Shown here piece after piece: positions 12,357 to 59,971 of a stretch of 64,000 bases of DNA (positions are counted from its first letter, which is position 1; the number at the start of each line of letters is the position of its first letter). The DNA comes from Pseudomonas sp. MYb327 (GTDB taxonomy: Bacteria > Pseudomonadota > Gammaproteobacteria > Pseudomonadales > Pseudomonadaceae). The stretch is from contig NZ_CP159258.1 of NCBI RefSeq assembly GCF_040438925.1, positions 5,293,001-5,357,000 on the forward strand, read 5' to 3'. A program made the translations under genes and the position numbers. The notes below the pieces were generated by a model. The model did no database searches and was not told where the DNA came from. It saw only the letters and a program-made list of their open reading frames with translations.

Positions 12357-13220
12357 TTACTCAATATTCTGCACTTGTTCGCGCATCTGCTCGATCAACA
12401 CCTTGAGGTTGACCGCAGCCTGGGTGCTGCGCGGGTCGAAGGCTTTGGAGCCCAGTGTGTTGGCTTCGCGGTTGAGTTCCTGCATCAGGAAGTCCAGGCG
12501 TCGCCCGGCTGCGCCACCGGACTTGAGCACCCGGCGAACTTCAATGATGTGAGTGCTCAGGCGATCCAGTTCTTCGGCGACGTCGCTTTTCTGAGCGAGC
12601 ATGACCATTTCCTGTTCCAGGCGCTGCGGATCCATTTCGGCCTTCATATCGGCAAATCGATCGAGAACCTTCTGGCGCTGGGTGCCGAGCATTTGCGGAA
12701 CGAGTTCGCGCAGGGTGACCACGTCTTCTTCAATCGACGTCAAGCGATCGTTGATCAGGCGAGCCAGCTCCGCGCCTTCTCGCTCACGGCCGGCCTTGAG
12801 TTCTTTCAAACCCTGGTTGAACAGTGCCAGCGCTTCGGCATTCAAGGCTTGCGGATCGGTTGCGTCACCCACCAGCACGCCGGGCCAGGCCAGGACTTCG
12901 AGGGGATTCAGTGCAGCCGGATTCTTGATCAGGCTGGCGATCGTCTCGGCGGCCGCGACCAATTGTGCAGCACGCGCCTGATCCACTTGCAGCGCTTTGC
13001 CTGTGTTTTCTTCGGTGAAGCGCAGCGTGCATTCGAGCTTGCCCCGGGACACGCCCTGACGCAGCGCTTCGCGGACGGCGCCTTCGAGGTCACGAAAGGA
13101 CTCAGGCAGACGCAAGTGGGGTTCCAGGTAGCGGCTGTTGACCGAACGCAGCTCCCAGCTCAGGGTGCCCTGAACGCCGGCTTTTTCGACGCGGGCAAAG
13201 GCGGTCATGCTGTGCACCAT
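12357..13220 (-). CDS. yicC: YicC family endoribonuclease-like protein
   Basis: A 287-residue YicC protein, with MVHSMTAFARVE at the N-terminus and ELNREANTLGSKA near the C-terminus. The family has been linked to RNA turnover in enterobacteria; its role here is not proven. The open frame begins at 13235, but the ATG at 13220 gives the family N-terminus. It is divergent from rph. Confidence 0.93.
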   Translation of the reverse strand: MVHSMTAFARVEKAGVQGTLSWELRSVNSRYLEPHLRLPESFRDLEGAVREALRQGVSRGKLECTLRFTEENTGKALQVDQARAAQLVAAAETIASLIKNPAALNPLEVLAWPGVLVGDATDPQALNAEALALFNQGLKELKAGREREGAELARLINDRLTSIEEDVVTLRELVPQMLGTQRQKVLDRFADMKAEMDPQRLEQEMVMLAQKSDVAEELDRLSTHIIEVRRVLKSGGAAGRRLDFLMQELNREANTLGSKAFDPRSTQAAVNLKVLIEQMREQVQNIE

Positions 13221-13422
13221 GGCGGTACCTCGCAATGCAGATCGGCCCGGAATTAAGGTTCCGGCATTCCGATATCAATGAATTAAAGCCGATAGGCAGC
13301 AAAGGCGCAGGATTGTAGCGCAGTGGCGCGGATGCGCCCAAACACACGGTGTGACAAACGGCTGCAGGTCGTCGACGACGGGCTGTTCAGAGCCTTCGGT
13401 CGTCGGAGGATTTTTTTAGAAG

Positions 13423-13451
13423 TGCCCAGCCGTGGCTGGCGGCTCTATAAT
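13423..13451 (+). promoter_or_regulatory. Sigma-70-like promoter of rph
   Basis: A perfect -10 hexamer TATAAT lies at 13446-13451, 36 bp before the rph ATG. The -35 region 17 bp upstream (TGCCCA at 13423) is poor, so the -10 assignment is firmer than the -35. Confidence 0.5.
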
Positions 13452-13487
13452 GCTCCGCAGTTTTCCGTCCCCGTACAGGTATCCCTT

Positions 13488-14210
13488 ATGAAACGTCCAA
13501 GTGGTCGCGCTGCCGATCAGCTCCGCTCGATCCGCATTACCCGCAACTACACCAAACACGCCGAGGGATCTGTACTGGTCGAGTTCGGTGACACCAAAGT
13601 CATCTGCACCGTCAGCGTCGAAAACGGTGTGCCGCGCTTTCTCAAAGGCCAGGGCCAAGGCTGGTTGACCGCCGAATACGGCATGCTGCCGCGCGCCACT
13701 GGCGAGCGCAACCAGCGTGAAGCGAGTCGCGGCAAGCAAGGCGGCCGCACCCTGGAAATCCAGCGTCTGATCGGTCGTTCGCTGCGTGCATCCCTCGACA
13801 TGTCGAAGCTCGGCGACGTCACCCTGTACGTCGATTGCGACGTGATCCAGGCTGACGGCGGCACCCGCACCGCATCGATTACCGGCGCTATGGTTGCGCT
13901 GGTCGATGCCTTGAAAGTGATCAAGAAGCGCGGCGGCCTGAAAGGCGGCGACCCGCTCAAGCAGATGATCGCTGCCGTTTCGGTGGGCATGTATCAAGGT
14001 GAGCCGGTGCTCGACCTCGACTACCTGGAAGACTCGGCTGCCGAGACCGACCTGAACGTTGTGATGACCAGCACTGGTGGCTTCATCGAAGTCCAAGGCA
14101 CTGCCGAAGGCGCGCCGTTCCAGCCGGAAGAGCTGAACGCCATGCTTGAGCTGGCGAAAAAAGGCATGAACGAAATCTTCGATCTGCAGAAAGCCGCACT
14201 GGCTGACTGA
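13488..14210 (+). CDS. rph: Ribonuclease PH
   Basis: A 240-residue phosphorolytic 3'-5' exoribonuclease that trims tRNA 3' ends. [15 protein letters not shown] is the standard N-terminus and sets the start at 13488, although the frame is open from 13323. RNase PH signatures include [25 protein letters not shown] and [13 protein letters not shown] near the C-terminus. Complete, with no sign of the E. coli K-12 rph frameshift. The order rph-crc-pyrE is conserved in Pseudomonas. Confidence 0.97.
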
Positions 14211-47343: not shown

Positions 47344-49320
47344 ATGTCTCAACCTCGTGCCCGGATCGCTTCACAGCTAGGTCTTGCGCTTGCCGTGATA
47401 CTGGCGATCGTCATCAGCGGCAGTACCTTGTTCGCCCTGCGCTCGCTGGACACGGCCAATCTGGCCACTCGCGAAGAGCATCTGGCCAGTGAGGCCCGGT
47501 TGTTGGCCGATCAATTGAGCACCTTTCACGGCACCCTGCGTGAAAGCACCCAGCGCCTGGCCGGGCTGTTTGAAAAGCGCTTCAGTGCCGGTTTGAGTGT
47601 GCACCCGGAAGAGCCGGTGGCTGTCGCGGGTACGCAGACCCCGGGTCTGCACCTGGGCAGCGAAGTGCTGAACAACAATTTCAACGAAGTGGACCAGTTC
47701 AAGCAGATGACCGCCGGTGTGGCCACGGTGTTCGTGCGCAGCGGTGAGGATTTCATCCGGGTCAGCACCAACGTCACCAAGCAAGACGGCAGTCGTGCCA
47801 TCGGCACTGTGCTCGATCATGCGAATCCGGCCTACGCCCGATTGATGGCGGGGCAGAGTTACGTGGGTCGGTCCCTGTTGTTCGAACGCTTCTACATGTC
47901 GCAGTACACCCCGGTGCGTGACAGCAGCGGCAAAGTCTTTGCGGTGCTGTACGTAGGTTTCGATTACACCGACGCGCAGAATGCCCAGTTCGAAAACCTC
48001 AAGCGCTTCCGCATCGGCCAGACCGGCTCTCTGGCGTTGCTGGATGAGCAAAATAAATGGCTGGTCCCGATTGCTGGTGTGCAGGCGCTGGATCAAGCGG
48101 TCCCGGCCGTTGTGGCGCTTGCGAAGACCCCGGGCAAGGGCAGTTTCTGGAGCGACACGTCGCAAGACTTCTACAGCATTGCCGTGCCGTTCGAAGGCGG
48201 GCCGTGGTCGGTGGTGGCAAGCATGCCGAAGACCGAAATCAGCGCTGTGACCTGGAGCGTCGGCATTCAGCTGGCCATCGGCAGTCTGTTGGCGATGTTG
48301 ATCGCGGTCGGTTCTGCGGTCTGGCTGCTGCGCAGCAAATTGGCACCGCTGGGTGATCTGGTGCGTCAGGCCGAAGCCTTGGGCGCCGGTGATTTGAGCG
48401 TACGCCTGAGCGTGTCGAGCAATGATGAAATCGGCCAGTTGGCCCGAGCCTTCAACCAGATGAGCCAGGCGTTGTCGACCATGGTCGAGCACATCCGTAC
48501 CGCTTCGATGGAGGTCAATAGCCGCGCCCAGGCCTTGTCCGGTTTGTCAGGCGGCGCTTATGAAGGGATGGAGCAGCAATCCGGCGAAATCACCAGCATG
48601 GCGGGCGCTGTGGAAGAGTTCAGCGCGACTTCCCTGAACATCGCCGACAACATGGGCAGCACCCAGCGTCTGGCCCAGGAAAACGCCCAACAAACCCAGA
48701 TCGGTCGTACCTCTATGGACGAAGCATCTTCGTCGCTGGAGCAAATTGCCGGGGCGTTGAACAGCACGGCGACGGTGATCAACACCTTGGGGCAGCGCTC
48801 CCAGGAAATCGGCGGCATCGTCGGCGTGATCACCTCGATTGCCGAACAGACCAATCTGCTGGCGTTGAACGCTGCGATTGAAGCGGCCCGCGCGGGTGAA
48901 CAGGGGCGCGGTTTCGCCGTGGTGGCTGATGAAGTACGCAACCTGGCGTCCCGCACTCGTCAGGCGACTGATGAAATTTCCGGCATGATCCAAAGCATCC
49001 AGCAGGAAACCGGCAACGCCATCAGCACCATGGAGCAGGGCAACGTGCTGATGCAGGAAGGTCTGTCACGCAACGCCAACGTAGCTTCGGCACTGGCGCG
49101 GATCGATGAGCAAAGCCGTTCGGCCGGTCAGCAATTTGCGGCGATCACCACCGCGACCCAAGAGCAAAGCAGCACCGCGACGTTGCTCAGCAGCAACCTG
49201 CAGAGCATTGCCCTGGCCAACAGCGAGCAGCGTGAGGTGGTTTCCAACCTGGCCGTCACCGCCAAGGAACTGGAAAAGCTGGCTGCGGATTTGCGTTCTG
49301 AGGTTGACCGGTTTCGTTGA
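47344..49320 (+). CDS. Methyl-accepting chemotaxis protein (Cache_3-Cache_2 sensor)
   Basis: A 658-residue transmembrane receptor. An N-terminal helix (about 10-32), a long periplasmic Cache-type ligand domain (about 35-300; [25 protein letters not shown]), a second helix (about 302-325), HAMP (about 325-380) and a signalling domain with the hairpin [19 protein letters not shown]. The ligand is unknown. It lies next to the phosphoramidate-like island and ends only 11 bp from its last gene, which converges on it. Confidence 0.92.
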
Positions 49321-49331
49321 AATGTTGTGGA

Positions 49332-50045
49332 TTATTGATACACGCAGAGGTCTTCACTGGAGTCGATCTCTCCCCATTCTCCTGTGTAAGAAAGAGCCTC
49401 AATCGGCACTCGGCCCGCATTGATGACACGCTGCAAGGTGTTGGTCATGTGCATGCTGTCACGCTGCTGCTGGGTCAAGCCTGCGCGCAGGCGAACGACT
49501 TCAGCCCACCCTTCAGGAGTGAATCGTAACAGCCCCATGTATTGGCCTTGGACTTCGTCCACCGAGTGTGGCTTGTTGCCAATTTCAGCCAGTGTGTTGG
49601 CAGCGGTGAGGCGGAATGTTTCGGCATCCAGCAATGGATCGCCGAAACGCTCCGTCCATAACTGCAGCCAGTTGGGATCGTAAGTGACGGCCAGCGATGC
49701 CGTGCTCGCCATCAACGACTGGACGGCCACCGGGCTGTAGAAAATATCCGAGTAACTGACGATGCATGGCTGGCCCTCAAGCCAGGACTCGGCACAGGCT
49801 AGCGACGACACCATATTGGTGTCTGCCCAGCGTGAATTATGAAACTCGCCCAGGCCGCGGTCTGCCAGCAGTTCACGTTTATAGCCTGTCACCACGGCGA
49901 TGTCACTGATGCCCGCCGCACGCAGCGATTCTAACTGCCACTCCAGCAAGGGTTTGCCGCGCAATTGCACAAGACACTTGGGGCGCTCGTCCGTGAGGCT
50001 TTTCATGCGACTGCCACGCCCGGCAGCCAGAATAATGGCTTTCAC
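49332..50045 (-). CDS. LicC-like cytidylyltransferase (Cj1416-like, candidate CTP:phosphoglutamine enzyme)
   Basis: A 237-residue nucleotidyltransferase. LAAGRGSRM (6-14), the catalytic Lys in RPKCL (K23) and SYSDIFYSP (metal Asp about 100) are all present, and TNMVSSL is typical of the LicC/phosphocholine-cytidylyltransferase branch. In C. jejuni Cj1416 joins CTP to N-phosphoglutamine to give CDP-glutamine. That activity is inferred here from the neighbours. The GTG start at 50045 follows AGGA, 7 bp after the previous stop. Last gene of the island operon. Confidence 0.82.
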   Translation of the reverse strand: MKAIILAAGRGSRMKSLTDERPKCLVQLRGKPLLEWQLESLRAAGISDIAVVTGYKRELLADRGLGEFHNSRWADTNMVSSLACAESWLEGQPCIVSYSDIFYSPVAVQSLMASTASLAVTYDPNWLQLWTERFGDPLLDAETFRLTAANTLAEIGNKPHSVDEVQGQYMGLLRFTPEGWAEVVRLRAGLTQQQRDSMHMTNTLQRVINAGRVPIEALSYTGEWGEIDSSEDLCVYQ

Positions 50046-50052
50046 AACAATT

Positions 50053-50679
50053 CTATCCTGTGAGTTCTTGAGTGGAATTGGTGATGTTGAACAACTGCTG
50101 GATACGCTCAATATCGTGCGCGGCAAAAGCGGTTTCGCGCTCTGGGTGCCACATCCAGCCTTGCCAAGGCAGGTGAAGGTGTCTGATCGCTTCGATCTCG
50201 CCGTCTTCGCTTCGTGCCATCACTTCAAAACCTTGCGGACAATTCTCAAGGGCGAAACCGTGATAGCTATTGACCTCGGACACGATCAACCCTGATAACC
50301 GGTGCCGGGTGCGCACATGCCCTGTCACCGGTTTCAACCCGCTACCTGACCAGTGGGCCAGCATCTGCATGCCCCGGCAGATCCCCAAAACTGGCAGATT
50401 GCGTGTACGCGCGTGGTCGAGCATCCTGCTTTCAGTCTGGTCGCGGGCCGGGTATTGACCGATGTCATTGCCCCCTGAAAGAACAACTGCTTGCGGCGAT
50501 ACTGCTGCCAGCCAGTGATCCAGCTCATCCGGCGATTGCCGGCTTAAGCCGTTGGGTACCGGCACGGGGATGAGGCCTGCCGCCAGCAAAAAACCGCTCA
50601 GGCGCTGGTCCAGTGCATCACGGGTTTCACCGCGCTCCGGGTGAGTGTCCACGCGTTGGCTGACAGCGACTATTTTCAC
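50053..50679 (-). CDS. Class-I amidotransferase-fold hydrolase (Cj1417-like)
   Basis: A 208-residue protein of the gamma-glutamyl-GABA-hydrolase/glutaminase family. The Cys-His-Glu triad is visible: C101 in LGICRGMQM, and H178 and E180 in MWHPE; VLSGGNDI is the oxyanion region. In C. jejuni Cj1417 releases glutamate from CDP-glutamine to leave cytidine diphosphoramidate. The GTG at 50679 overlaps the stop of the upstream kinase by 4 bp (GTGA). There is no synthase partner subunit, in agreement with a free-standing hydrolase. Confidence 0.85.
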   Translation of the reverse strand: MKIVAVSQRVDTHPERGETRDALDQRLSGFLLAAGLIPVPVPNGLSRQSPDELDHWLAAVSPQAVVLSGGNDIGQYPARDQTESRMLDHARTRNLPVLGICRGMQMLAHWSGSGLKPVTGHVRTRHRLSGLIVSEVNSYHGFALENCPQGFEVMARSEDGEIEAIRHLHLPWQGWMWHPERETAFAAHDIERIQQLFNITNSTQELTG

Positions 50680-52991
50680 GACATCATCTCCACCCTGCGG
50701 CCCGGGCAGTCCAGGTGCAGGAAGTCCGCCGTCGACCAGCGACGGTAGAGTACCTCGCCTGCACCAATGACCGCTGGCAGTCCAAGTTCGCCAGCACGTA
50801 TTGCCATGTGCGAATTGGCCCCACCCCACGCGGTGATCAGTCCGGCAATCGGGTACGCAAACAACCAGTCGAAGCCTGGGTCCGCATTGGGGATGCAGAC
50901 AATCGCCCCGGCGAGTTTTTGCCGGTCATCGCACTGCACCACGGGCGCGGTCACCCTCTTTTGAGTGATGAAATTGGGTGCCGTTTCTGGCCACTCGAAA
51001 CTCCAGACATCCTCGGGGCAGGTAATGACCGGCGGCAAAGAGACTTTGAGTGTCTCTGCGTAACGAGCCTTGCCTTGCTCGATGCTGCGCAACAGCACTT
51101 CTTTCGGATCCGCTGCCGCAACGTGCAACTCCTTGAAGGCGCTGATATCGCAATAGGCCAGGTCTTCTCGGTCAATCCCATGTTGAGCACCCACCTGAGC
51201 AATCAGCGCCAGCGCGTCCGAGAGATTGCGCGTGAAGTGAAATTTGGCCAGCTCGCGCAGTTCGATGCCGTTTTGCAGGAAGTCCAGCAGACCCACCGGA
51301 TCAGGCTGCAGGCCATGGACCTCAAGCAACTGCACGATCTCGCGCATCTGTGGCAGCGTCAGAGAAAAGGGTCGAACGGGTTCTGGTGCAGCTGGGCTTT
51401 GAGTCCAGTCGAAATAGAGCTCGGGAGCCTCATCGTAGCGAGGCGAGAGGATGTCGTAGGTGCCCGGTCGCAAATGCCCGTAGCGCGCCAGGAATGTTGT
51501 CTTGTCGAGGGTGGCGCGGTCACGTGCCAGCTGACCGCTGACGGTGGAAACACCCGCCATGAACGCATCGTAATCAGCTTGCGAGAATACGCCGACGCTG
51601 ACCAGCGATCTGAGCATCTGTACCGCCACGAAGCCTGCACGTGCCAGGCCAGCAAAGGGCAGGGTGCCGTAACGTTTGGCATCTTCCAGTAGCCAATAAA
51701 TGCGCTCCAGCGGATCAGCGTTGGACGCCAACAGTGCCTCGCGGCGGGCGTTGAGTACGTCAAGCTTGTTCGCGTCGCTGCGCCACAGACCATCCTTGGG
51801 ATGAACGATCCGATTGGTCAACTTGCGCAAACTGGTGCTGATGGCTTCCAGTTCGTGATCGAGAAAACCTGCACTGCGCAAACGTTCCAATTGCTGCGAC
51901 AAGTCCAGGGTGTAGCAGGAGTAAACAATCTCGAACTCCACCTTGTCGTGTAATGTCGGTTCAGCCAGCAACCGATCAATGTAGTAATCGACCAGGCGTC
52001 CGGCCAATCCTTCATCGAGGTCCGCCGGAATGAAGGAGTTGAACGACAGGCGCACATCGATATAAGGCAGGCCGAAAAAATGCGGCATCAGTGGAAAGCT
52101 GCGCAAGTTACGGTAGCCATAGTTGTGACGCTGGTAGGCCCAGATCGAGTCTGTGACCAGATCCCGATATAGCGAAAGCGCCAACGGTTTTGGGCGGATA
52201 CCGATAATTTCTGCCGGGTTCCAGTCGGGCATCACGCCATACACTGTGCGCTGGCCGATCAGGAAAGGATGTGGCCGCATGCCGCGTTCCACTTTGCTCT
52301 GAATACTCTCGAGCCGGGCAAACTGCGTTGTTGCAGACTCAGGCCGCGAGGGCAGGATCAGGGGGCGTGCCTGGAGCAGCCACAGTGTCTCGCCTTCGGT
52401 TTCGGTTGTGACCGCGAATTCGCAATCAACGGGCTCGTCTCCGAACAGGTCCAGCAGCTCTTCGAGCAAGGCAACTACGGGGGCGAGGGACGCTGGTGGT
52501 GAAACCCTGCTGTGCGCCGCCTGCTGCCAGAGCCGCCCACCCATACCGCCAGTGACCGCTGCCGTGTCGCTGCCTTCCGACCAGTTCACTATCCGATACG
52601 GAGCGCAGGTGTTGGGGTCATGGGAAAAGGCAACACCTGAACGCGCTACGTTGCCTAACATCGGCTGAATCAGGATCTCGTCTGTAAGGTGCACATCTCC
52701 ATAACTGGCGATGACCTGTTCGATCGCGGATATCAAGCCCGCCTCATCGACGTTCGGCACCGATAGGAAAGCACCGGCGAAGGACGCCTGGGCGCTGTCC
52801 TCGCGCCCGCAACTGGAGCGTACGATCCAGGGGGCGACAGGCAGTTGTCTCTGAATATCCCCCACACAGGCGCGCTGATCCATTCGCCAATCCGCCACAG
52901 TGAACGACAGCAGTGGAGCAATGCGCGCCGACGCAAGCCGCCCTTGAAGGCTGGACAGGGTGCCGGCCTTCGTTGAGAAATGCAGGGCCAT
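50676..52991 (-). CDS. PEP-synthase/PPDK-like kinase (Cj1418-like, candidate L-glutamine kinase)
   Basis: A 771-residue protein. The N-terminal ATP-grasp domain (about 1-215) has VRSSCGREDSAQASFAG (R58, E64) as in PEP synthase. The middle domain (about 230-690) has no resemblance to the PEP/pyruvate barrel that I can see. The C-terminal swivelling phosphohistidine domain carries GGANSHMAIRA with catalytic H728. This is the layout of C. jejuni Cj1418, which phosphorylates the amide nitrogen of L-glutamine. Alternatives are another PPDK-like kinase such as PhtL of the phaseolotoxin cluster. ATG start, 6 bp after the methyltransferase. Confidence 0.85.
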   Translation of the reverse strand: MALHFSTKAGTLSSLQGRLASARIAPLLSFTVADWRMDQRACVGDIQRQLPVAPWIVRSSCGREDSAQASFAGAFLSVPNVDEAGLISAIEQVIASYGDVHLTDEILIQPMLGNVARSGVAFSHDPNTCAPYRIVNWSEGSDTAAVTGGMGGRLWQQAAHSRVSPPASLAPVVALLEELLDLFGDEPVDCEFAVTTETEGETLWLLQARPLILPSRPESATTQFARLESIQSKVERGMRPHPFLIGQRTVYGVMPDWNPAEIIGIRPKPLALSLYRDLVTDSIWAYQRHNYGYRNLRSFPLMPHFFGLPYIDVRLSFNSFIPADLDEGLAGRLVDYYIDRLLAEPTLHDKVEFEIVYSCYTLDLSQQLERLRSAGFLDHELEAISTSLRKLTNRIVHPKDGLWRSDANKLDVLNARREALLASNADPLERIYWLLEDAKRYGTLPFAGLARAGFVAVQMLRSLVSVGVFSQADYDAFMAGVSTVSGQLARDRATLDKTTFLARYGHLRPGTYDILSPRYDEAPELYFDWTQSPAAPEPVRPFSLTLPQMREIVQLLEVHGLQPDPVGLLDFLQNGIELRELAKFHFTRNLSDALALIAQVGAQHGIDREDLAYCDISAFKELHVAAADPKEVLLRSIEQGKARYAETLKVSLPPVITCPEDVWSFEWPETAPNFITQKRVTAPVVQCDDRQKLAGAIVCIPNADPGFDWLFAYPIAGLITAWGGANSHMAIRAGELGLPAVIGAGEVLYRRWSTADFLHLDCPGRRVEMMS

Positions 52992-52997
52992 TAGGCG

Positions 52998-53747
52998 TTA
53001 TCTCAGTTGAGCGACCCAGATGTTTGTCGAGTACGGAATCTGGATTGATGGCGTCTGAAGGCTTTGCAAGTAGTCGTCAATCGCGTCAATCACTTCGTGG
53101 AAACGCGCGCCGGCCTGACGTTCCAGCGTGGCGTGAGACCGCCAGGCTTCAAGGCACTCTGCAATGGATTGCTCGTGAATGACTCGCGCATCCAGGTGAA
53201 CAACCGGACCGAACAGTTCGCTGGCATCGATCACGGCAGTCTGATCTTCACGACGAGTACCGTAGCCATAACCGGCTACTCGCTCTTTGATGATGGCCTC
53301 GATACGGGCCTGGATCGGGTCGTCGAGGTGACGATGGTTCCACATGCAGGCGAACCAGCCACGTGGCTTGAGAATACGTGATGTTTCCTTGAGGGCCTGT
53401 TGGCGGTCGCAGACATTGAAGGAACTGCCGAACGTGACCATGTCAAACGCTTGAGACGATTGCCCAGTGACCTCACCGGTACCTTCATGCCACTTCACGT
53501 TGCTCAACTCGGCGGTGCGCTTGATGCCATTGGTGCGCATCGCGTCGTTCGGTTCCACCGCGATGACATCCAGGCCGCGAGCGGCCAACATCAGCGTCAA
53601 GTGCGCAACACCGGCACCGACATCGCAGAACTTGTCGCCTTTTTGGGCACCTGCGATCGACAACATGGCGTCAATGGCGGCATCGGCGTAGTCAGGGCGC
53701 TTGAGGTAAGCATCGGCCAGCGTGGTGTAGTCCCATTCGGTTTTCAT
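52998..53747 (-). CDS. Class I SAM-dependent methyltransferase (Cj1419/Cj1420-like)
   Basis: A 249-residue methyltransferase with a Rossmann core. Motif I is DVGAG (42-46), the acidic residue after strand 2 is E65 in IAVEPNDAM, and FDMVTFGSSFNVCD follows. In the island context it is the candidate O-methyltransferase that would methylate the phosphoramidate or its precursor. Its ATG overlaps the kinase stop by 4 bp. Without biochemical data it could also act on another small molecule. Confidence 0.85.
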   Translation of the reverse strand: MKTEWDYTTLADAYLKRPDYADAAIDAMLSIAGAQKGDKFCDVGAGVAHLTLMLAARGLDVIAVEPNDAMRTNGIKRTAELSNVKWHEGTGEVTGQSSQAFDMVTFGSSFNVCDRQQALKETSRILKPRGWFACMWNHRHLDDPIQARIEAIIKERVAGYGYGTRREDQTAVIDASELFGPVVHLDARVIHEQSIAECLEAWRSHATLERQAGARFHEVIDAIDDYLQSLQTPSIQIPYSTNIWVAQLR

Positions 53748-54361
53748 ACAATGTTCCTTCTATGAATTTGTTTGACTAAATAATCCGCCAGGCTCTGGCT
53801 GGAGCGTTCTGGATCGAACTCAACCAGGCAGTCTGCTTCTAGCGGTTCATCAATGACCAGATCAAGTCCGGCAACGTTGTGTAGTTCACCTGCATCGAAC
53901 CGACGGTAGATTCCCTTGGGATCGCGCCGACGCAACTCCTCTACGGGTACCTTCAGATAGACCTCGAAGTAACCTGGCAGGTGGGCGCGGTTCCACTCGT
54001 GAACCTCACGAAACAGCGAAATTGTGCCAATGACCACGGTCTGCCCCTGCGCAGCGAGCATTCTGCATAGCCGGGCATACTGCATCGCAAGGGCCAGGCG
54101 ACCTTCACGGCCGTGGTTTTGTGAGTTATTGGCGGCTGCACCAAATACCTCGCGCAGCTCGTCTCCATCCAGCAAGACCACTGATTGGCCGATGCCACGT
54201 AGCTTGGCAACGAGCTCCTCGGCCAGAGTCGACTTGCCCGCACCCGAAAGGCCTGTAATCCAGACTACCTGTCCACCCGACTCGCGTTTCATATCGTTCT
54301 GACTTGTGTTCGATGTGAGTATGTCGGCAGGCTGAACCATTGCATGAGGTTCAGCGTGCAC
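53744..54361 (-). CDS. APS-kinase-like nucleotide kinase (Cj1415-like, candidate cytidine diphosphoramidate kinase)
   Basis: About 205 residues with a CysC-like fold. The P-loop GLSGAGKST is at 37-45, LLDGDELREVFG follows, and RRDPKGIYRRFDAGE is recognisable from APS kinases. The canonical CysC loop GIDSPYE is replaced by GLDLVIDEPLEAD, so it is divergent from true APS kinase. No cysD/cysN lies nearby. C. jejuni Cj1415, of the same fold, adds a 3'-phosphate to cytidine diphosphoramidate. Starts GTG 54361, ATG 54340 and ATG 54292 are all possible; the first is 3 bp after the upstream stop. Confidence 0.8.
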   Translation of the reverse strand: MHAEPHAMVQPADILTSNTSQNDMKRESGGQVVWITGLSGAGKSTLAEELVAKLRGIGQSVVLLDGDELREVFGAAANNSQNHGREGRLALAMQYARLCRMLAAQGQTVVIGTISLFREVHEWNRAHLPGYFEVYLKVPVEELRRRDPKGIYRRFDAGELHNVAGLDLVIDEPLEADCLVEFDPERSSQSLADYLVKQIHRRNIV

Positions 54362-54364
54362 TAT

Positions 54365-55537
54365 TTACTGTTGATCTCGATCAACGGTATGGCCAAAAGA
54401 GTTGATCATGGAACCGTAGAATTTCGACGCGTGCCGATATTCAACCAAATCTCTTAACATCTCTTTAGGGCATGGCAGGTCGCTGAATTGCGATTGGTAG
54501 AACTTCTTGTAAATAGAGTGGCTGTCCTCGGCACTCAGCAGGCTGAGCCCAAGGGCTAGATCTTTGAGTTCTTCGCTGTTTTTTGCGATGGGCAACAAGT
54601 TGTCCAGTTCCTTTAGCCAGACGTCAACTATGGGGTTGTTTTCGTCCGTAGGTGGAACGTAATAAATAGGTAGTTTGCCCGAGCTGAGCATGAATGAAAC
54701 ACCGCCAGTCGAGGCATCCGTGATGATGGTGTCGCATTTCTGGTAAAAGTCTTTACTGCTCGTTCCTGGTTCATCGATAGTGACCCATTCACAAGTGGAA
54801 AGCTGGTCGCATAAACTTTTTACAACCGGGTGTTCAATGTCAGTCATGTACGGACGCAAAATGAATCTGGCATGAGGGAGTTGCGACTTGACGGTATTCA
54901 GAACGGTTTGCAGGTTTTCATACAGGGTTGCATTCGTGGGGCAAATGCCAAGTTGAGTTGGCAGCAGTCCTATAACATGTTCATTGGTGGTTTTCTTGAC
55001 CGATGGGAAAACATCGATGAACTCAGCGATTTTTATCGGGCGCGTCGGGATCGGGCTTGTTGTGCGCAGGTCCGAGCGTAATCCTATTCCGTCAGGTATC
55101 GAAGCTTTCAGTGATTTCCTGGCGCGTCTGTAAAGCTGCAGCCCTGTACTGGTCAAATGACAGGCCGATCTGGACGGCGAAACAATAGCGTCCCAATAGG
55201 CAGTCAGTTCAGCATAATAGTAGGGGTCTTTTGCCGGCATTCCGACATTGCCATGACTGATGAAAACACCAAAGTTTGAATCGTCAAGAAAGCGTCCGAT
55301 CCAGGCATCGTTCGATATGACGACTTGTGATTCCAGGCTTGCAATGAATTCTACATCAACTTCGGTGACAGGAAAGTTGAGAAAGTCTTCTGCTTCTTGT
55401 TTGCTTAGTCCGGTTCTATTCGTTTGAAGTACGATGCAGTTAAAGTCATTGCGAAGAGCATCGAGTGCGGGAATAAGATACTCGAGATAGGTCTTTCCGC
55501 CACTAATGACGTTGCTGATTAGATAAATATTGTTCAT
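54365..55537 (-). CDS. CDP-glycerol glycerophosphotransferase-like / GT-B transferase (candidate phosphoramidate transferase)
   Basis: A 390-residue protein with a GT-B-like layout. HGN around H95, ILRPY (226-230) and DASTGGVSFML (274-284) resemble TagF/TagB-type poly-glycerophosphate transferases. I cannot assign it firmly. As first gene of the operon it may transfer the activated phosphoramidate, or a glycerophosphate, to a surface glycan. Its base composition is visibly AT-richer than that of most of the window, and codons such as AAA, AAT and ATA are more frequent, suggesting recent acquisition. No clear ribosome site precedes the ATG at 55537. Confidence 0.6.
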   Translation of the reverse strand: MNNIYLISNVISGGKTYLEYLIPALDALRNDFNCIVLQTNRTGLSKQEAEDFLNFPVTEVDVEFIASLESQVVISNDAWIGRFLDDSNFGVFISHGNVGMPAKDPYYYAELTAYWDAIVSPSRSACHLTSTGLQLYRRARKSLKASIPDGIGLRSDLRTTSPIPTRPIKIAEFIDVFPSVKKTTNEHVIGLLPTQLGICPTNATLYENLQTVLNTVKSQLPHARFILRPYMTDIEHPVVKSLCDQLSTCEWVTIDEPGTSSKDFYQKCDTIITDASTGGVSFMLSSGKLPIYYVPPTDENNPIVDVWLKELDNLLPIAKNSEELKDLALGLSLLSAEDSHSIYKKFYQSQFSDLPCPKEMLRDLVEYRHASKFYGSMINSFGHTVDRDQQ

Positions 55538-55864
55538 GAGGAAGGCGTTCTTATTGAAATTTGCCTGGGCAAATCCGGTATAAAGTTAACAAGTGCGTGA
55601 AGAAAAAATCACATGATATCCTGTTGCACTTATCATAGTTAAGTCCGTCGTAGTCGCTGGATAATCTGCTACGTACGGTGGGTAAAAGAAATTTTATTCA
55701 TTGTAAGTTAGCCCTTCCTATATACGTGTTGGTAAGTTCTGTGTCTTGGATAAACAGTATTCAGTCTTGATGACAAACGTCACCGTTATATCACAGTTTG
55801 GCCAATGGCTATTAGCGGCTGGGGGGGTATTTCTGTGGGTGCGGGTGTCGTACGGTGAGCCTCG
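55538..55864. other. AT-rich 327-bp region between the island and comM
   Basis: No supported gene. It should hold the promoter of the six-gene operon, but I found no convincing -10/-35 pair. A palindrome ATTTGCC-TG-GGCAAAT occupies 55559-55574, 22 bp before the first start codon. A seven-G run occurs near 55822. No terminator for comM is evident. Confidence 0.6.
55559..55574. promoter_or_regulatory. Palindrome ATTTGCC-TG-GGCAAAT in the 5' region of the island operon
   Basis: A perfect 7-bp inverted repeat with a 2-bp centre, immediately upstream of the first island gene. It could be an operator, or an RNA hairpin affecting translation of that gene. Confidence 0.45.
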
Positions 55865-57358
55865 TCATTGTGTCCCCGGACGATATTGCAGTGCCTCAGC
55901 CAGGTGGTCACGAGTGATTGCATCACGCTGCTCAAGGTCGGCCAGTGTCCGCGCAACTTTGAGCAGTCGATGAGCCGAGCGCAGTGACAAGGTCAACCGC
56001 TCACACGCCGATTCCAGCCATTTCTCGTCGGCTGTGGATAACTTGCAGTGCCGACGCAGCCCTGGTAAATCCAGGAAGGCATTCGCGCAACCCTGACGTC
56101 TCTGCTGGCGTTCCCGGGCATTGGCAATCAGCGCCGTAGCACTGGCGCTGTCATCGCCGGGTGTCGAAACAGGGTTCAGCGCCGTGGGCTCTCGAGCGAC
56201 GGTCAGGTGCAGGTCGATACGGTCCAGCAGCGGGCCCGATAGTTTGTTGCGATACCGCTGCACCTTGTCCGGTGTACATGAGCACTTGCCGCTCGGTTCT
56301 CCAAGATAGCCGCAGGGGCATGGGTTCATTGCCGCCACCAACTGAAAGCGCGCTGGAAACCGTACACGGTCTTTAGCCCTTGAGATTACGATATGCCCCG
56401 ATTCCATCGGTTCCCTGAGTACCTCAAGTACCTTTCGATCAAACTCCGGCAACTCATCGAGAAACAGCACGCCGTGGTGGGCGAGAGTGATTTCCCCGGG
56501 TTGCGGTTTCGAGCTGCCGCCAACCAGCGCAGGACCAGATGCCGAGTGGTGCGGTTGCCGAAAGGGACGCTGCGGCCAATGGCTCAACGGCGCACAGCTG
56601 GTGACCGATTGAATTGCCGCCACTTCCAGAGCTTCGCTTTCGCTCAGCGGTGGCAGCAATCCTGGAAGGCGACTCGCCAGAAGCGTCTTGCCCGTTCCGG
56701 GAGGTCCGCAGAACAACAAGTTGTGCGCCCCCGCAGCAGCAATCAGCAACGCCCGTTTGGCGGCTTGCTGGCCTTGTACTTCATTCAGGTCGGGATAGGG
56801 CTTGCTGGCGAGTATCAATCCATCAGAAATGTAGGGCTCGACCGGAGTGTGCCCATTGAAATGGGCCACAGCTTCCAACAGATGATCCACCGCAATCACC
56901 TTCAACCCCGATGCCAGGCACGCCTCCTCGGCATTCGCCCGCGGCACCATCAACGAACGCCCGGCCTTGCGCGCCGCCAACGCCGCCGGCAACACACCAC
57001 GCACGGCCCGCACAGCACCTGACAGCGCCAACTCACCCAAACATTCCACATCATCGAGCGTCAGCGTCGGCACCTGCACACTGGCGGAAAGAATCCCCAA
57101 CGCAATCGCCAGATCGAACCGCCCACCGTCCTTGGGCAGATCTGCCGGTGCCAGATTCAACGTGATCCGCCGCGCCGGAAATTGCAGCCCCGAATTGATG
57201 ATCGCACTGCGCACCCGATCCTTGCTCTCCTTCACCGCCGCTTCGGGCAGACCGACCATGGTCAGCGATGGCAAGCCGTTGGCCAGATGCACTTCAACCG
57301 TAACGGCGGGCGCTTCCACGCCGACCTGGGCGCGGCTGTGGACGATGGAGAGGGACAT
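55865..57358 (-). CDS. comM: ComM/YifB family AAA ATPase
   Basis: A 497-residue Mg-chelatase-like protein. A LonC-like N-terminal domain (1-170) is followed by an AAA core with GPPGTGKTLLASRLP and a C-terminal domain with a Cys-containing loop (NPCPCGYLGEPSGKCSC). ComM promotes branch migration in natural transformation in other gammaproteobacteria. The start at 57358 is chosen by the conserved MSLSIVHSRA. A conserved neighbour of ubiK-glnK. Confidence 0.95.
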   Translation of the reverse strand: MSLSIVHSRAQVGVEAPAVTVEVHLANGLPSLTMVGLPEAAVKESKDRVRSAIINSGLQFPARRITLNLAPADLPKDGGRFDLAIALGILSASVQVPTLTLDDVECLGELALSGAVRAVRGVLPAALAARKAGRSLMVPRANAEEACLASGLKVIAVDHLLEAVAHFNGHTPVEPYISDGLILASKPYPDLNEVQGQQAAKRALLIAAAGAHNLLFCGPPGTGKTLLASRLPGLLPPLSESEALEVAAIQSVTSCAPLSHWPQRPFRQPHHSASGPALVGGSSKPQPGEITLAHHGVLFLDELPEFDRKVLEVLREPMESGHIVISRAKDRVRFPARFQLVAAMNPCPCGYLGEPSGKCSCTPDKVQRYRNKLSGPLLDRIDLHLTVAREPTALNPVSTPGDDSASATALIANARERQQRRQGCANAFLDLPGLRRHCKLSTADEKWLESACERLTLSLRSAHRLLKVARTLADLEQRDAITRDHLAEALQYRPGTQ

Positions 57359-58076: not shown

Positions 58077-58598
<522 letters not shown>

Positions 58599-58633
58599 GC
58601 CGCCACAAACCCAACGCCCCAGGAGAAAACAAT

Positions 58634-59971
58634 ATGACTCTGCGTAAATCCGCAGGGCTAGGAGCCCTGTTGTCCATCGTAATGCCCAGCCTTGCTTTGG
58701 CGGCAGACGAAGTGGCGGCCCCAGTCCTCAACTCCGGCGACACCGCCTGGATGTTGACCTCGACAGCCCTCGTGCTGTTTATGACCATTCCAGGCCTCGC
58801 GCTGTTCTACGGCGGCATGGTTCGGTCGAAAAACATTCTTTCCGTGATGATGCAGTGCTTCGCCATTACCGGTCTGATCAGCATCCTGTGGGTCATTTAT
58901 GGCTACAGCATCGCGTTCGACACCACGGGCATGGAGCAGGGCGTCGTCAACTTCAACTCGTTCTTCGGCGGCATGGGCAAGGCGTTCCTCGCCGGTGTCA
59001 CGCCAGCCAGCCTGACCGGTCCTGCGGCGCTGTTCCCTGAGGCGGTGTTCATCACCTTCCAGATGACGTTCGCCATCATCACTCCAGCGCTGATCGTTGG
59101 TGCCTTTGCCGAGCGGATGAAATTCTCCGCGATGCTGATTTTCATGGGCATCTGGTTCACCCTGGTGTATGCGCCGATCGCGCACATGGTCTGGTCCGGC
59201 AACGGCGGCCTGATGTGGGACTGGGGCGTGCTGGACTTTGCCGGCGGCACCGTGGTGCACATCAACGCTGGTGTGGCCGGTCTGATCGCCTGCCTGGTAC
59301 TGGGCAAACGCAAAGGCTTTCCGACCACCCCGATGGCCCCACACAACCTCGGTTACACCCTGATGGGTGCTGCGATGCTGTGGGTTGGCTGGTTCGGTTT
59401 CAACGCCGGTTCCGCTGCCGCAGCCAACGGCACTGCCGGCATGGCGATGCTGGTCACCCAGATCGCTACCGCCGCTGCTGCATTGGGCTGGATGTTCGCC
59501 GAGTGGGTCACCCACGGCAAGCCAAGCGCACTGGGTATCGCTTCGGGCGTGGTTGCAGGCCTGGTCGCAATTACTCCGGCTGCCGGTACTGTAGGTCCGA
59601 TGGGCGCTCTGGTAATCGGTCTTGCCGCTGGCGTGGTGTGCTTCTTCTGCGCGACCACCCTGAAGCGCAAACTCGGCTATGACGATTCCCTGGATGCCTT
59701 CGGCGTACACGGTATCGGCGGTATCCTCGGCGCGATCCTGACCGGTGTGTTCGCTGCACCGTCTCTGGGTGGCTTCGGCACCGTGACCGACATCGCCGCA
59801 CAAGTCTGGATTCAGTGCAAAGGCGTGGGCTTCACGGTGATCTACACCGCGATCGTCACTTACATCATCCTCAAGGTCCTCGACGCTGTGATGGGCCTGC
59901 GTATCACCGAAGAAGAAGAGGCTGTCGGTATCGATCTGGCGCTTCACAACGAACGCGGCTACAACTTGTAA
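58634..59971 (+). CDS. amtB: Ammonium transporter AmtB
   Basis: A 445-residue membrane protein. The signal peptide ends near ALA, and about 11 helices follow. The Amt signature DFAGGTVVHINAG and the second pore histidine in DAFGVHGIGG are intact. It carries ammonium into the cell under limitation. The gene is preceded by AGGAGA. Confidence 0.97.
   Translation: MTLRKSAGLGALLSIVMPSLALAADEVAAPVLNSGDTAWMLTSTALVLFMTIPGLALFYGGMVRSKNILSVMMQCFAITGLISILWVIYGYSIAFDTTGMEQGVVNFNSFFGGMGKAFLAGVTPASLTGPAALFPEAVFITFQMTFAIITPALIVGAFAERMKFSAMLIFMGIWFTLVYAPIAHMVWSGNGGLMWDWGVLDFAGGTVVHINAGVAGLIACLVLGKRKGFPTTPMAPHNLGYTLMGAAMLWVGWFGFNAGSAAAANGTAGMAMLVTQIATAAAALGWMFAEWVTHGKPSALGIASGVVAGLVAITPAAGTVGPMGALVIGLAAGVVCFFCATTLKRKLGYDDSLDAFGVHGIGGILGAILTGVFAAPSLGGFGTVTDIAAQVWIQCKGVGFTVIYTAIVTYIILKVLDAVMGLRITEEEEAVGIDLALHNERGYNL

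Follow-up and report, generated by a model that had tools for sequence, protein, structure and literature searches.

We describe a six-gene operon of Pseudomonas sp. MYb327 that appears to encode the synthesis of a phosphoramidate, a group with a phosphorus-nitrogen bond, together with a candidate enzyme for its transfer. The operon occupies positions 49332-55537, on the minus strand, of the 64,000-nucleotide stretch that we analysed (contig NZ_CP159258.1, positions 5,293,001 to 5,357,000; hereafter the window), which sits in a 6.15-Mb, single-contig genome. We put at roughly 0.8 the probability that this is a phosphoramidate cassette which is complete in itself and moves horizontally and, by analogy with the capsule pathway of Campylobacter jejuni, consider it very likely that the operon makes cytidine diphosphate (CDP)-phosphoramidate. 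The original prediction, made from the letters of the window alone, had read these genes as a phosphoramidate biosynthesis island, and at the level of comparative genomics this interpretation is supported both by family matches and by a gene linkage that extends over several phyla.

The six minus-strand genes are packed as that prediction had described, with spacers of 3, 6 and 7 bp and two 4-bp overlaps: GTB is followed after 3 bp by APSK, which overlaps MT by 4 bp; GLNK begins 6 bp further on and overlaps HYD by 4 bp, and NT follows after 7 bp.

54365..55537, minus strand: GTB, 390 residues, candidate phosphoramidate transferase; by profiles only, a remote relative of CDP-glycerol glycerophosphotransferases (PF04464)
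53744..54361, minus strand: APSK, 205 residues, GTG start; adenosine 5'-phosphosulfate (APS)-kinase-like protein, predicted CDP-phosphoramidate 3'-kinase (role of Cj1415)
52998..53747, minus strand: MT, 249 residues; S-adenosylmethionine (SAM) methyltransferase (Methyltransf_11), predicted to methylate phosphoramidate
50676..52991, minus strand: GLNK, 771 residues; phosphoenolpyruvate (PEP)-synthase-like dikinase, predicted L-glutamine kinase (role of Cj1418), with H728 conserved
50053..50679, minus strand: HYD, 208 residues, GTG start; predicted gamma-glutamyl-CDP-amidate hydrolase (role of Cj1417)
49332..50045, minus strand: NT, 237 residues, GTG start; MobA/LicC-like nucleotidyltransferase, predicted phosphoglutamine cytidylyltransferase (role of Cj1416)

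An alternative ATG start for APSK, at 54292, would give 182 residues and a gap of 72 bp to GTB. In the pathway that we propose, GLNK would transfer phosphate from ATP, by way of H728, to the side-chain amide of glutamine, NT would couple the phosphoglutamine with CTP, and HYD, with its Cys-His-Glu triad, would cut off glutamate to leave cytidine diphosphoramidate. APSK would then phosphorylate the 3'-hydroxyl of the ribose, which would yield 3'-phospho-CDP-phosphoramidate, a donor resembling 3'-phosphoadenosine 5'-phosphosulfate (PAPS). MT would methylate the phosphoramidate, either before it is transferred or afterwards, and GTB would move the (methyl) phosphoramidate to an acceptor hydroxyl in the cytoplasm with release of a cytidine nucleotide. 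The chemistry of the first four steps is borrowed from C. jejuni, and we infer both that it runs in the same way here and the methyl step, the transfer and the acceptor; what we observed directly is gene content, order, conservation, family membership, varying sites, and GTB met only in the company of the rest of the cassette. The phosphoramidate is rather likely to be methylated, and we favour GTB as the transferase with moderate confidence.

The C. jejuni capsule pathway for O-methyl phosphoramidate, Cj1415-Cj1422, uses the same kinds of enzyme (glutamine-kinase-like, cytidylyltransferase-like, hydrolase-like and APS-kinase-like) together with a methyltransferase and, as a distinct protein, a candidate for the transferase. 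Going by the numbers of the locus tags, MT, kinase, hydrolase and NT correspond to Cj1419-1418-1417-1416, where we take the strand of Cj1419-1416 to agree and Cj1419 and Cj1420 to be methyltransferases. Unlike the C. jejuni pathway, which we take to have two methyltransferases, the operon has a single one, and it is a stand-alone cassette of six genes that occurs at varying sites, has no capsule locus and encodes a hydrolase that scores under the NCBIfam cut-off. Because of this hydrolase score and the missing capsule locus, we do not file the operon as a strict member of the C. jejuni type. The comparisons that follow nevertheless give good support to a cassette that would function in the manner of the C. 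jejuni pathway, with GTB as a candidate for a new family of transferases.

GLNK matches NF004508/PRK05849 in NCBIfam at 1014 bits, over a cut-off of 501, and Cj1418 is presumably a member of the same family. Like the dikinases of the PEP synthase and rifampin-phosphotransferase types, GLNK has an N-terminal ATP-binding PPDK_N domain and C-terminal mobile domains (PPDK_N and PEP-utilizers by Pfam); unlike them, it has its own central region, and the Pfam scan found no C-terminal PEP/pyruvate-binding domain (PEP_C) in it. A near-invariant DWNPAE stretch in the central region is kept in 99-100% of 116 kinases, and K8, R58, D189, E191, Q207, R209, DWNPAE 256-261 and H728 are each found in 98-100% of them. 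H728 was present in 12 out of 12 kinases of one alignment and in 99% of the 116 in the larger one. Profile A1, built from GLNK relatives, matched PEP synthases and the entries 5fbs and 5hv2 in a PDB profile search; both entries are listed as 'Phosphoenolpyruvate synthase', and we take them to be rifampin phosphotransferases. Thus both the family and the conserved histidine of the predicted PEP-synthase-like kinase were borne out, and a check for grouping with true PEP synthases left the reading standing, as GLNK lacks PEP_C and matches PRK05849 over its cut-off.

HYD belongs to the Peptidase_C26/GATase families of Pfam. Its best NCBIfam model is NF045546, gamma-glutamyl-CDP-amidate hydrolase, at 99.9 bits, with the next model at 54.6, and NF045546 is also the best model for five other cluster hydrolases. 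The Cys-His-Glu triad (C102, H179 and E181, in the numbering of a 209-residue reading of HYD) is kept in 113 of 113 hydrolases, in agreement with the predicted amidotransferase-fold enzyme, although the score of the best model lies below its cut-off. NT, the last gene of a conserved triad of kinase, hydrolase and NT, matches NTP_transf_3 in Pfam, and its first PDB sequence match is 1jyk, a CTP:phosphocholine cytidylyltransferase. At the family level this agrees with the LicC-like enzyme that had been claimed; the family is MobA/LicC-like, and a specific cytidylyltransferase model is absent among the NCBIfam matches listed (25 of 43).

The remaining two families, an APS-kinase-like kinase and a SAM methyltransferase, were also correctly named. 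APSK matches NF004041/PRK05541 at 216.5 bits (cut-off 127) and stays below the cut-off of the apsK model TIGR00455 (104.9 versus 138.7 bits). A second APS_kinase match lies elsewhere in the genome, at 169 bits in a 635-residue frame, the length of a CysNC fusion, and a third, short one scores 23.3 bits. The check for a true APS kinase therefore did not refute the reading, since APSK falls under TIGR00455 and another APS kinase is encoded elsewhere. MT is a generic SAM methyltransferase by Pfam (Methyltransf_11). Identities as PEP synthase, APS kinase or plain amidotransferase were rejected on the basis of domains, cut-offs, the second APS kinase and the profile matches.

We found that the gene set is no peculiarity of this strain. 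Among 398 genomes of the genus, 36 have the kinase family, every time over the cut-off; of 398 genomes from the phylum, 15 have it, and the 14 control genomes gave no match. Relatives of the kinase also occur in records from Bacillota, Cyanobacteriota, Verrucomicrobiota and Acidobacteriota, many of them metagenome bins. To describe the neighbourhoods we use the 80 best (loci L068-L147) of at least 539 kinase relatives in genome contigs, a sample that leans to near relatives, and 35 further Pseudomonas loci. Within 8 kb of the kinase, the sample of 80 has the hydrolase in 77 loci, NT in 77, APSK in 74 and MT in 66, where missing neighbours are partly due to contig ends, as some stretches are short contigs; the corresponding counts in the 35 Pseudomonas loci are 35, 35, 26 and 16. 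Some kinases from genomes of the genus are identical to those of Pseudomonas records among the 80, for example in the pairs L036/L094 and L049/L070. Kinase, hydrolase and NT occur together in 111 loci, and in 110 of these they follow one another in one order and on one strand, L118 being the exception; a constancy of this degree argues that the linkage is not due to chance. Of the 80 loci whose MT match is longer than 200 residues, 58 have MT immediately in front of the kinase.

The sites at which the cassette is found point to mobility. In the window, the operon lies between two genes that mark the edges of an insertion site:

47344..49320, plus strand: methyl-accepting chemotaxis protein (MCP) gene, convergent with the operon; Cache, HAMP and MCPsignal by Pfam; one edge of the site
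55538..55864, minus strand: AT-rich stretch between comM and the operon, GC 0.434, with a single promoter-like match at 55642-55613
55865..57358, minus strand: comM-like gene (Mg-chelatase ChlI by Pfam); other edge of the site

Ten of the 16 cassettes of this type, which we call type A, have MCP and comM matches in their flanks (the window and L033-L041). The other six have neither; their neighbours include YchF (L043), enoyl-CoA hydratase (L044 and L049), queuosine synthesis (L045), an SNF2 helicase with an AMP-binding enzyme (L046) and, about 4.6 kb away, a phage HP1-type baseplate gene (L042). We also looked at 29 comM loci of other relatives and found empty sites in five, where the MCP and comM matches end 17, 43, 109, 272 and 1136 bp apart (L170, L160, L164, L166 and L161) with no island match between them. 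One further locus (L157, genome G019) has only hydrolase and NT matches between comM and MCP, a remnant of the cassette in a genome with no kinase match at E 1e-20, and another (L154) carries the island GTB; the remaining 22 of the 29 showed no MCP in their short flank. Type D clusters (L054-L056) had at first seemed to share the MCP-comM site, but a closer look places them on the other side of comM, in L055 between comM and the BMFP gene, and that assignment was dropped.

In the kinase tree, a quick search with Shimodaira-Hasegawa-type (SH-aLRT) support only, types A, B+C, D, E and F are each coherent and lie in different places, with D and E on long branches that are not resolved apart. Counting these separate groups with D and E taken together suggests at least four separate gains in the genus. 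Type A, with 23 rows, adjoins Castellaniella, Zoogloea, Dechloromonas and Rhodocyclales, along with bins of Verrucomicrobiales and Kapaibacterium. Plasmid records matched in 14 of 72,556 cases, all below 60% identity, and distant blastn gave no match in E. coli genomes. A phage origin was considered and rejected: thirteen stretches of viral_contigs fitted the sequence pattern and none of them was a relative, and among 50,697 phage records only one matched, a 9.5-kb record without annotation, at 33% identity.

The sixth gene required profile comparison. GTB has no Pfam, NCBIfam or PDB sequence match and does not reach the gathering score of PF04464; its PDB profile search gave a single match at E 1.2, and PDB searches with profiles A3 and A4 yielded nothing useful. 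When the GTB family was aligned by hhalign with the PF04464-type proteins of other clusters, however, the two matched with a probability of 90.9% and E 1.1e-6 over 100 columns, the similarity covering about 100 C-terminal columns with RPY/RPH and TDxS stretches. Profile A3, before iteration, gives the window GTB an E value of 1.4e-5. A profile built from non-GTB rows retrieved 23 of 23 GTB rows among 8,734 open reading frames, at E values of 8e-13 to 8e-7 in round 1, for which the rows had been gathered with GTB in the profile, and of 2e-8 to 3e-4 in round 3, for which they were re-selected without it. Round 1 brought in three further new rows (L135 at 9e-7 and two near 1e-2), and none came from the reversed set. 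Of the label that the original prediction had given this gene, GT-B/CDP-glycerol-type transferase, the kinship is thus supported by profile comparison, whereas Pfam and NCBIfam offer no match for it. GTB is encoded by 16 of the 398 Pseudomonas genomes, each of which is also one of the 36 with the kinase. It differs from the CDP-glycerol:poly(glycerophosphate) glycerophosphotransferases (PF04464, TagF-like) in lacking a Pfam match and in its proposed donor, CDP-phosphoramidate, but members of PF04464 occupy the position of GTB in sister clusters.

This position seems to be filled in several ways. Pfam finds PF04464 in Pseudomonas clusters of types B-E (L047, L053, L055 and L058), in L087 and L107 and on a Vibrio plasmid (L182). 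One PF04464-like or GTB gene is present in 32 of 36 Pseudomonas clusters, and the other four have a CDP-alcohol phosphotransferase (by Pfam in L064 and L067, and by a common sequence cluster in L065 and L066). Both classes use CDP-linked donors. In other TRANSFERASES, 55 loci of L068-L147 that span at least 18 kb have only a PF04464-like or GTB gene in 20 cases, only a sulfotransferase-like gene in 27, both in 2 and neither in 6; Fisher's test of this exclusion gives p 7e-8, which is no clean probability as the loci are related. Sulfotransferase-fold genes lie near the core in 35 of the 80 loci of L068-L147, nearly exclusive of PF04464-like genes (L072, L076, L081, L084, L089, L091, L092, L095-L098, L100, L109, L111, L114, L115, L118, L121-L129, L132, L134, L138, L141-L143 and L145-L147). 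These 35 come from profile runs started from L109 and L100, plus L072 by its Pfam match; the runs grew over their rounds, so that some of the 35 may be false, and L097 and L125 are weak profile matches. A run from L128 drifted, took in a methyltransferase-looking gene and was excluded from the counts. Among the 33 candidates scanned with Pfam (all but L091 and L097), PF13469 was found in 26 and PF00685 in 13, at E values up to 0.01. R170 is present in 32 and S178 in 31 of 33, with a spacing that we take to be the 3'-phosphate motif of PAPS sulfotransferases.

APSK accompanies the sulfotransferase-like gene in 35 of 35 loci of L068-L147 and the PF04464-like gene in 26 of 26; of the 31 Pseudomonas loci that have a PF04464-like gene, 26 also have APSK. 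The 3'-phosphate would not be confined to clusters of the sulfotransferase type. CysQ-like genes were found in ten loci (L072 at 12920-13702, L074, L076, L079, L083, L084, L102, L105, L110 and L141), in several of them between the hydrolase and NT. Two that were checked with Pfam are Inositol_P, and one of these matches CysQ in NCBIfam at 217 bits (cut-off 228.8). An enzyme of this kind, a 3'(2'),5'-bisphosphate nucleotidase, would clear the cytidine 3',5'-bisphosphate left after transfer. Together, the sulfotransferase relatives, APSK and the CysQ-like genes suit a 3'-phosphonucleotide donor that mimics PAPS. The likeness to PAPS-dependent sulfation lies in the APS-kinase-like enzyme of the operon and, in clusters elsewhere, in the sulfotransferase-fold and CysQ-like genes; the differences are that the predicted nucleotide is 3'-phospho-CDP-phosphoramidate and that no sulfotransferase-like or CysQ-like gene is part of the window operon.

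Several observations weigh against the phosphoramidate cassette as we have drawn it. HYD scores 99.9 bits where the equivalog cut-off of NF045546 is 250, and none of the six cluster hydrolases scanned (HYD and five others, one of them a partial reading) reaches that cut-off. The likeness to Cj1415-Cj1422 was drawn at the level of families and of the gene run. The kinship of GTB to PF04464 appears remote, was missed by Pfam and covers about 100 aligned columns, and a profile of L047-type rows alone found no GTB. The ten CysQ-like genes do not keep to clusters with a sulfotransferase slot: four keep company with sulfotransferase-like genes, four with PF04464-like genes and two with neither. Finally, among the 35 other Pseudomonas clusters this MT is missing from 19 and APSK from 9, so that neither the methyl step nor the 3'-kinase step is obligatory, and 23 of the 66 MT matches in L068-L147, at an identity of only 29-49%, may represent different methyltransferases.

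These points bear most directly on the methyl step. It is possible, although we consider it unlikely, that CDP-phosphoramidate is made and the group transferred unmethylated, with MT acting on some other substrate, such as the acceptor sugar. The clusters without MT agree with this, as does type B with its different, 401-residue methyltransferase (L047 by Pfam, L048 by reading). The original prediction had stated that Cj1419 and Cj1420 methylate the C. jejuni product, which is not established: according to a 2025 paper, both are without an assigned function, since their knock-outs left the capsule unchanged (PMC11800397), and a 2022 review has the C. jejuni phosphoramidate occurring also without methyl (PMC9561416). 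The methyl step here consequently rests on context. On the other side, the identity of MT reaches 50% or more in 43 of the 66 loci, whose other neighbours differ, and a fixed substrate in a shared pathway fits this better than acceptors that vary. A second alternative, which we regard as still less probable, is that the cassette makes a small diffusible compound with a phosphorus-nitrogen bond, an antimetabolite or signal, and that GTB acts on a small molecule and decorates no glycan. Type A sits at several unrelated sites, no glycan gene was found either within the operon or among the neighbours that were scanned, and the sister type F, with ATP-grasp, CDP-alcohol phosphotransferase and major facilitator superfamily (MFS) genes and without APSK or MT, looks secretory. 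However, genes for an exporter or a ligase are absent from the type A operon, and in the kinase tree type A falls not with type F but with clusters from other bacteria, some of which lie amid sugar genes or genes of the flagellin family.

That the genes belong to ordinary metabolism, as a PEP synthase or other dikinase, a sulfation APS kinase, a class I amidotransferase and a sugar or choline nucleotidyltransferase adjacent by chance, is very improbable. GLNK, APSK, HYD and NT each have distant relatives in those families, but GLNK is without PEP_C and over the PRK05849 cut-off, the genome has another APS kinase, and the genes remain linked in distant bacteria.

To return to the phosphoramidate cassette, its surroundings allow a guess at the acceptor. 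Type A has no exporter gene in the operon and no flagellin neighbours among the genes scanned, so the acceptor should be a common structure that is built in the cytoplasm; our first guess is a sugar of lipopolysaccharide or of another surface glycan assembled inside the cell. Clusters of other types adjoin flagellin-family or hook genes by Pfam (L047 of type B, L053 of type C, L075, L091 and L102), which makes flagellin glycans likely acceptors there. L048 and L050-L052 lie beside flagellin-family or hook genes by neighbour homology, like flagellin glycosylation islands, and DegT-type aminotransferases occur in L053 and L075. Read as a whole, the gene content of these clusters suggests, at about even odds, a widespread modular phosphoramidation, with a fixed CDP-phosphoramidate core and an interchangeable transferase slot of three classes, in which the Pseudomonas cassette is a stand-alone module for an acceptor common to many pseudomonads. 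In this reading the slot would hold PF04464 relatives including the new GTB family, sulfotransferase relatives using 3'-phospho-CDP-phosphoramidate as a PAPS mimic, and CDP-alcohol phosphotransferases. A CysQ-like enzyme would clear the by-product in some clusters, and a CDP-alcohol phosphotransferase with ATP-grasp and transporter proteins would lead to secreted natural products with a phosphorus-nitrogen bond.

The presence of the gene set across the genus, the phylum and further phyla would turn a capsule oddity into a general biochemical module. The glutamine kinase is called 'C. jejuni-specific' in the 2022 review (PMC9561416), and a 2019 review has the modification identified only in Campylobacter (PMC6429109). 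The literature on 'cytidine diphosphoramidate' is mostly about Campylobacter by title, and in open-licence literature we found nothing on such systems in Pseudomonas, the listed matches on Pseudomonas, flagellin or phosphorus-nitrogen bonds being phaseolotoxin, Campylobacter and unrelated work. According to another 2025 paper, the attachment of phosphoramidate is still to be elucidated (PMC12409886). The modular reading makes testable how the group is attached, which enzyme methylates it and why the donor would carry a 3'-phosphate, and the Pseudomonas cassette, being small and apart from a capsule locus, is a convenient system for this. Phages of C. jejuni recognise the phosphoramidate group, according to the 2022 review (PMC9561416), which makes a role in phage exposure plausible in Pseudomonas too.

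The sister clusters differ in further respects. Type F (L064-L067) joins the triad to an ATP-grasp ligase, a CDP-alcohol phosphotransferase and an MFS permease and has no APSK or MT match; its genes were assigned by Pfam in L064 and in parts of L065 and L067 and by sequence clusters for the rest, and such clusters of longest open reading frames were used only for the neighbours of types F and B, including L048 and L050-L052. An Agrobacterium vitis plasmid (L183) carries the triad with LysE and a CDP-alcohol phosphotransferase, and both it and type F look like clusters for a secreted small molecule with a phosphorus-nitrogen bond. In type E, the kinase frames (L058:7927-10971; L059 and L061-L063) can have a long N-terminal extension, with 1015 residues in L058 and 1036 in L059. 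Type E lies near PF04464-like genes, without an APSK or MT match, and L058 also has YidC-like (60KD_IMP), sulfatase-family and formyltransferase-domain proteins. In types B and D, both of which lack MT, a family of about 190 residues without a Pfam match (L047:4823-5395, L055:7781-8350 and relatives) accompanies APSK and a protein with a formyltransferase domain, and it perhaps provides another tailoring of the phosphoramidate. On a Vibrio alfacsensis plasmid (L182), the kinase, hydrolase and NT genes accompany a CDP-glycerol phosphotransferase family gene beside cysN and cysD. A conjugative plasmid of Cupriavidus taiwanensis from Mimosa nodules (L184) has a kinase relative of 35% identity about 8 kb from nifK, with no hydrolase or NT in the incomplete gene table of that stretch.

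In the window, the GC content of the island is 0.559, compared with 0.595 for the window and 0.468 for GTB alone. Promoter-like matches in the operon region are no more frequent than in shuffled sequence (5 versus a mean of 3.6, s.d. 2.0), the terminator scan of this region gave no excess over shuffles, and an Rfam scan of 49000-56200 found nothing at the gathering threshold. No capsule locus was found among the nine flanking window genes scanned, which by Pfam are MatE, LysR, MCP, comM, BMFP, P-II, an ammonium transporter, UPF0047 and SutA, or in the flanks scanned of L042-L046 and L049. Genes for a P-II regulator and an ammonium transporter, of the glnK-amtB type, lie at 58260-59971, beyond comM. 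Similar genes lie close to comM in L054 and L055, by reading, and the P-II/amtB pair is therefore probably part of the ordinary neighbourhood of comM.

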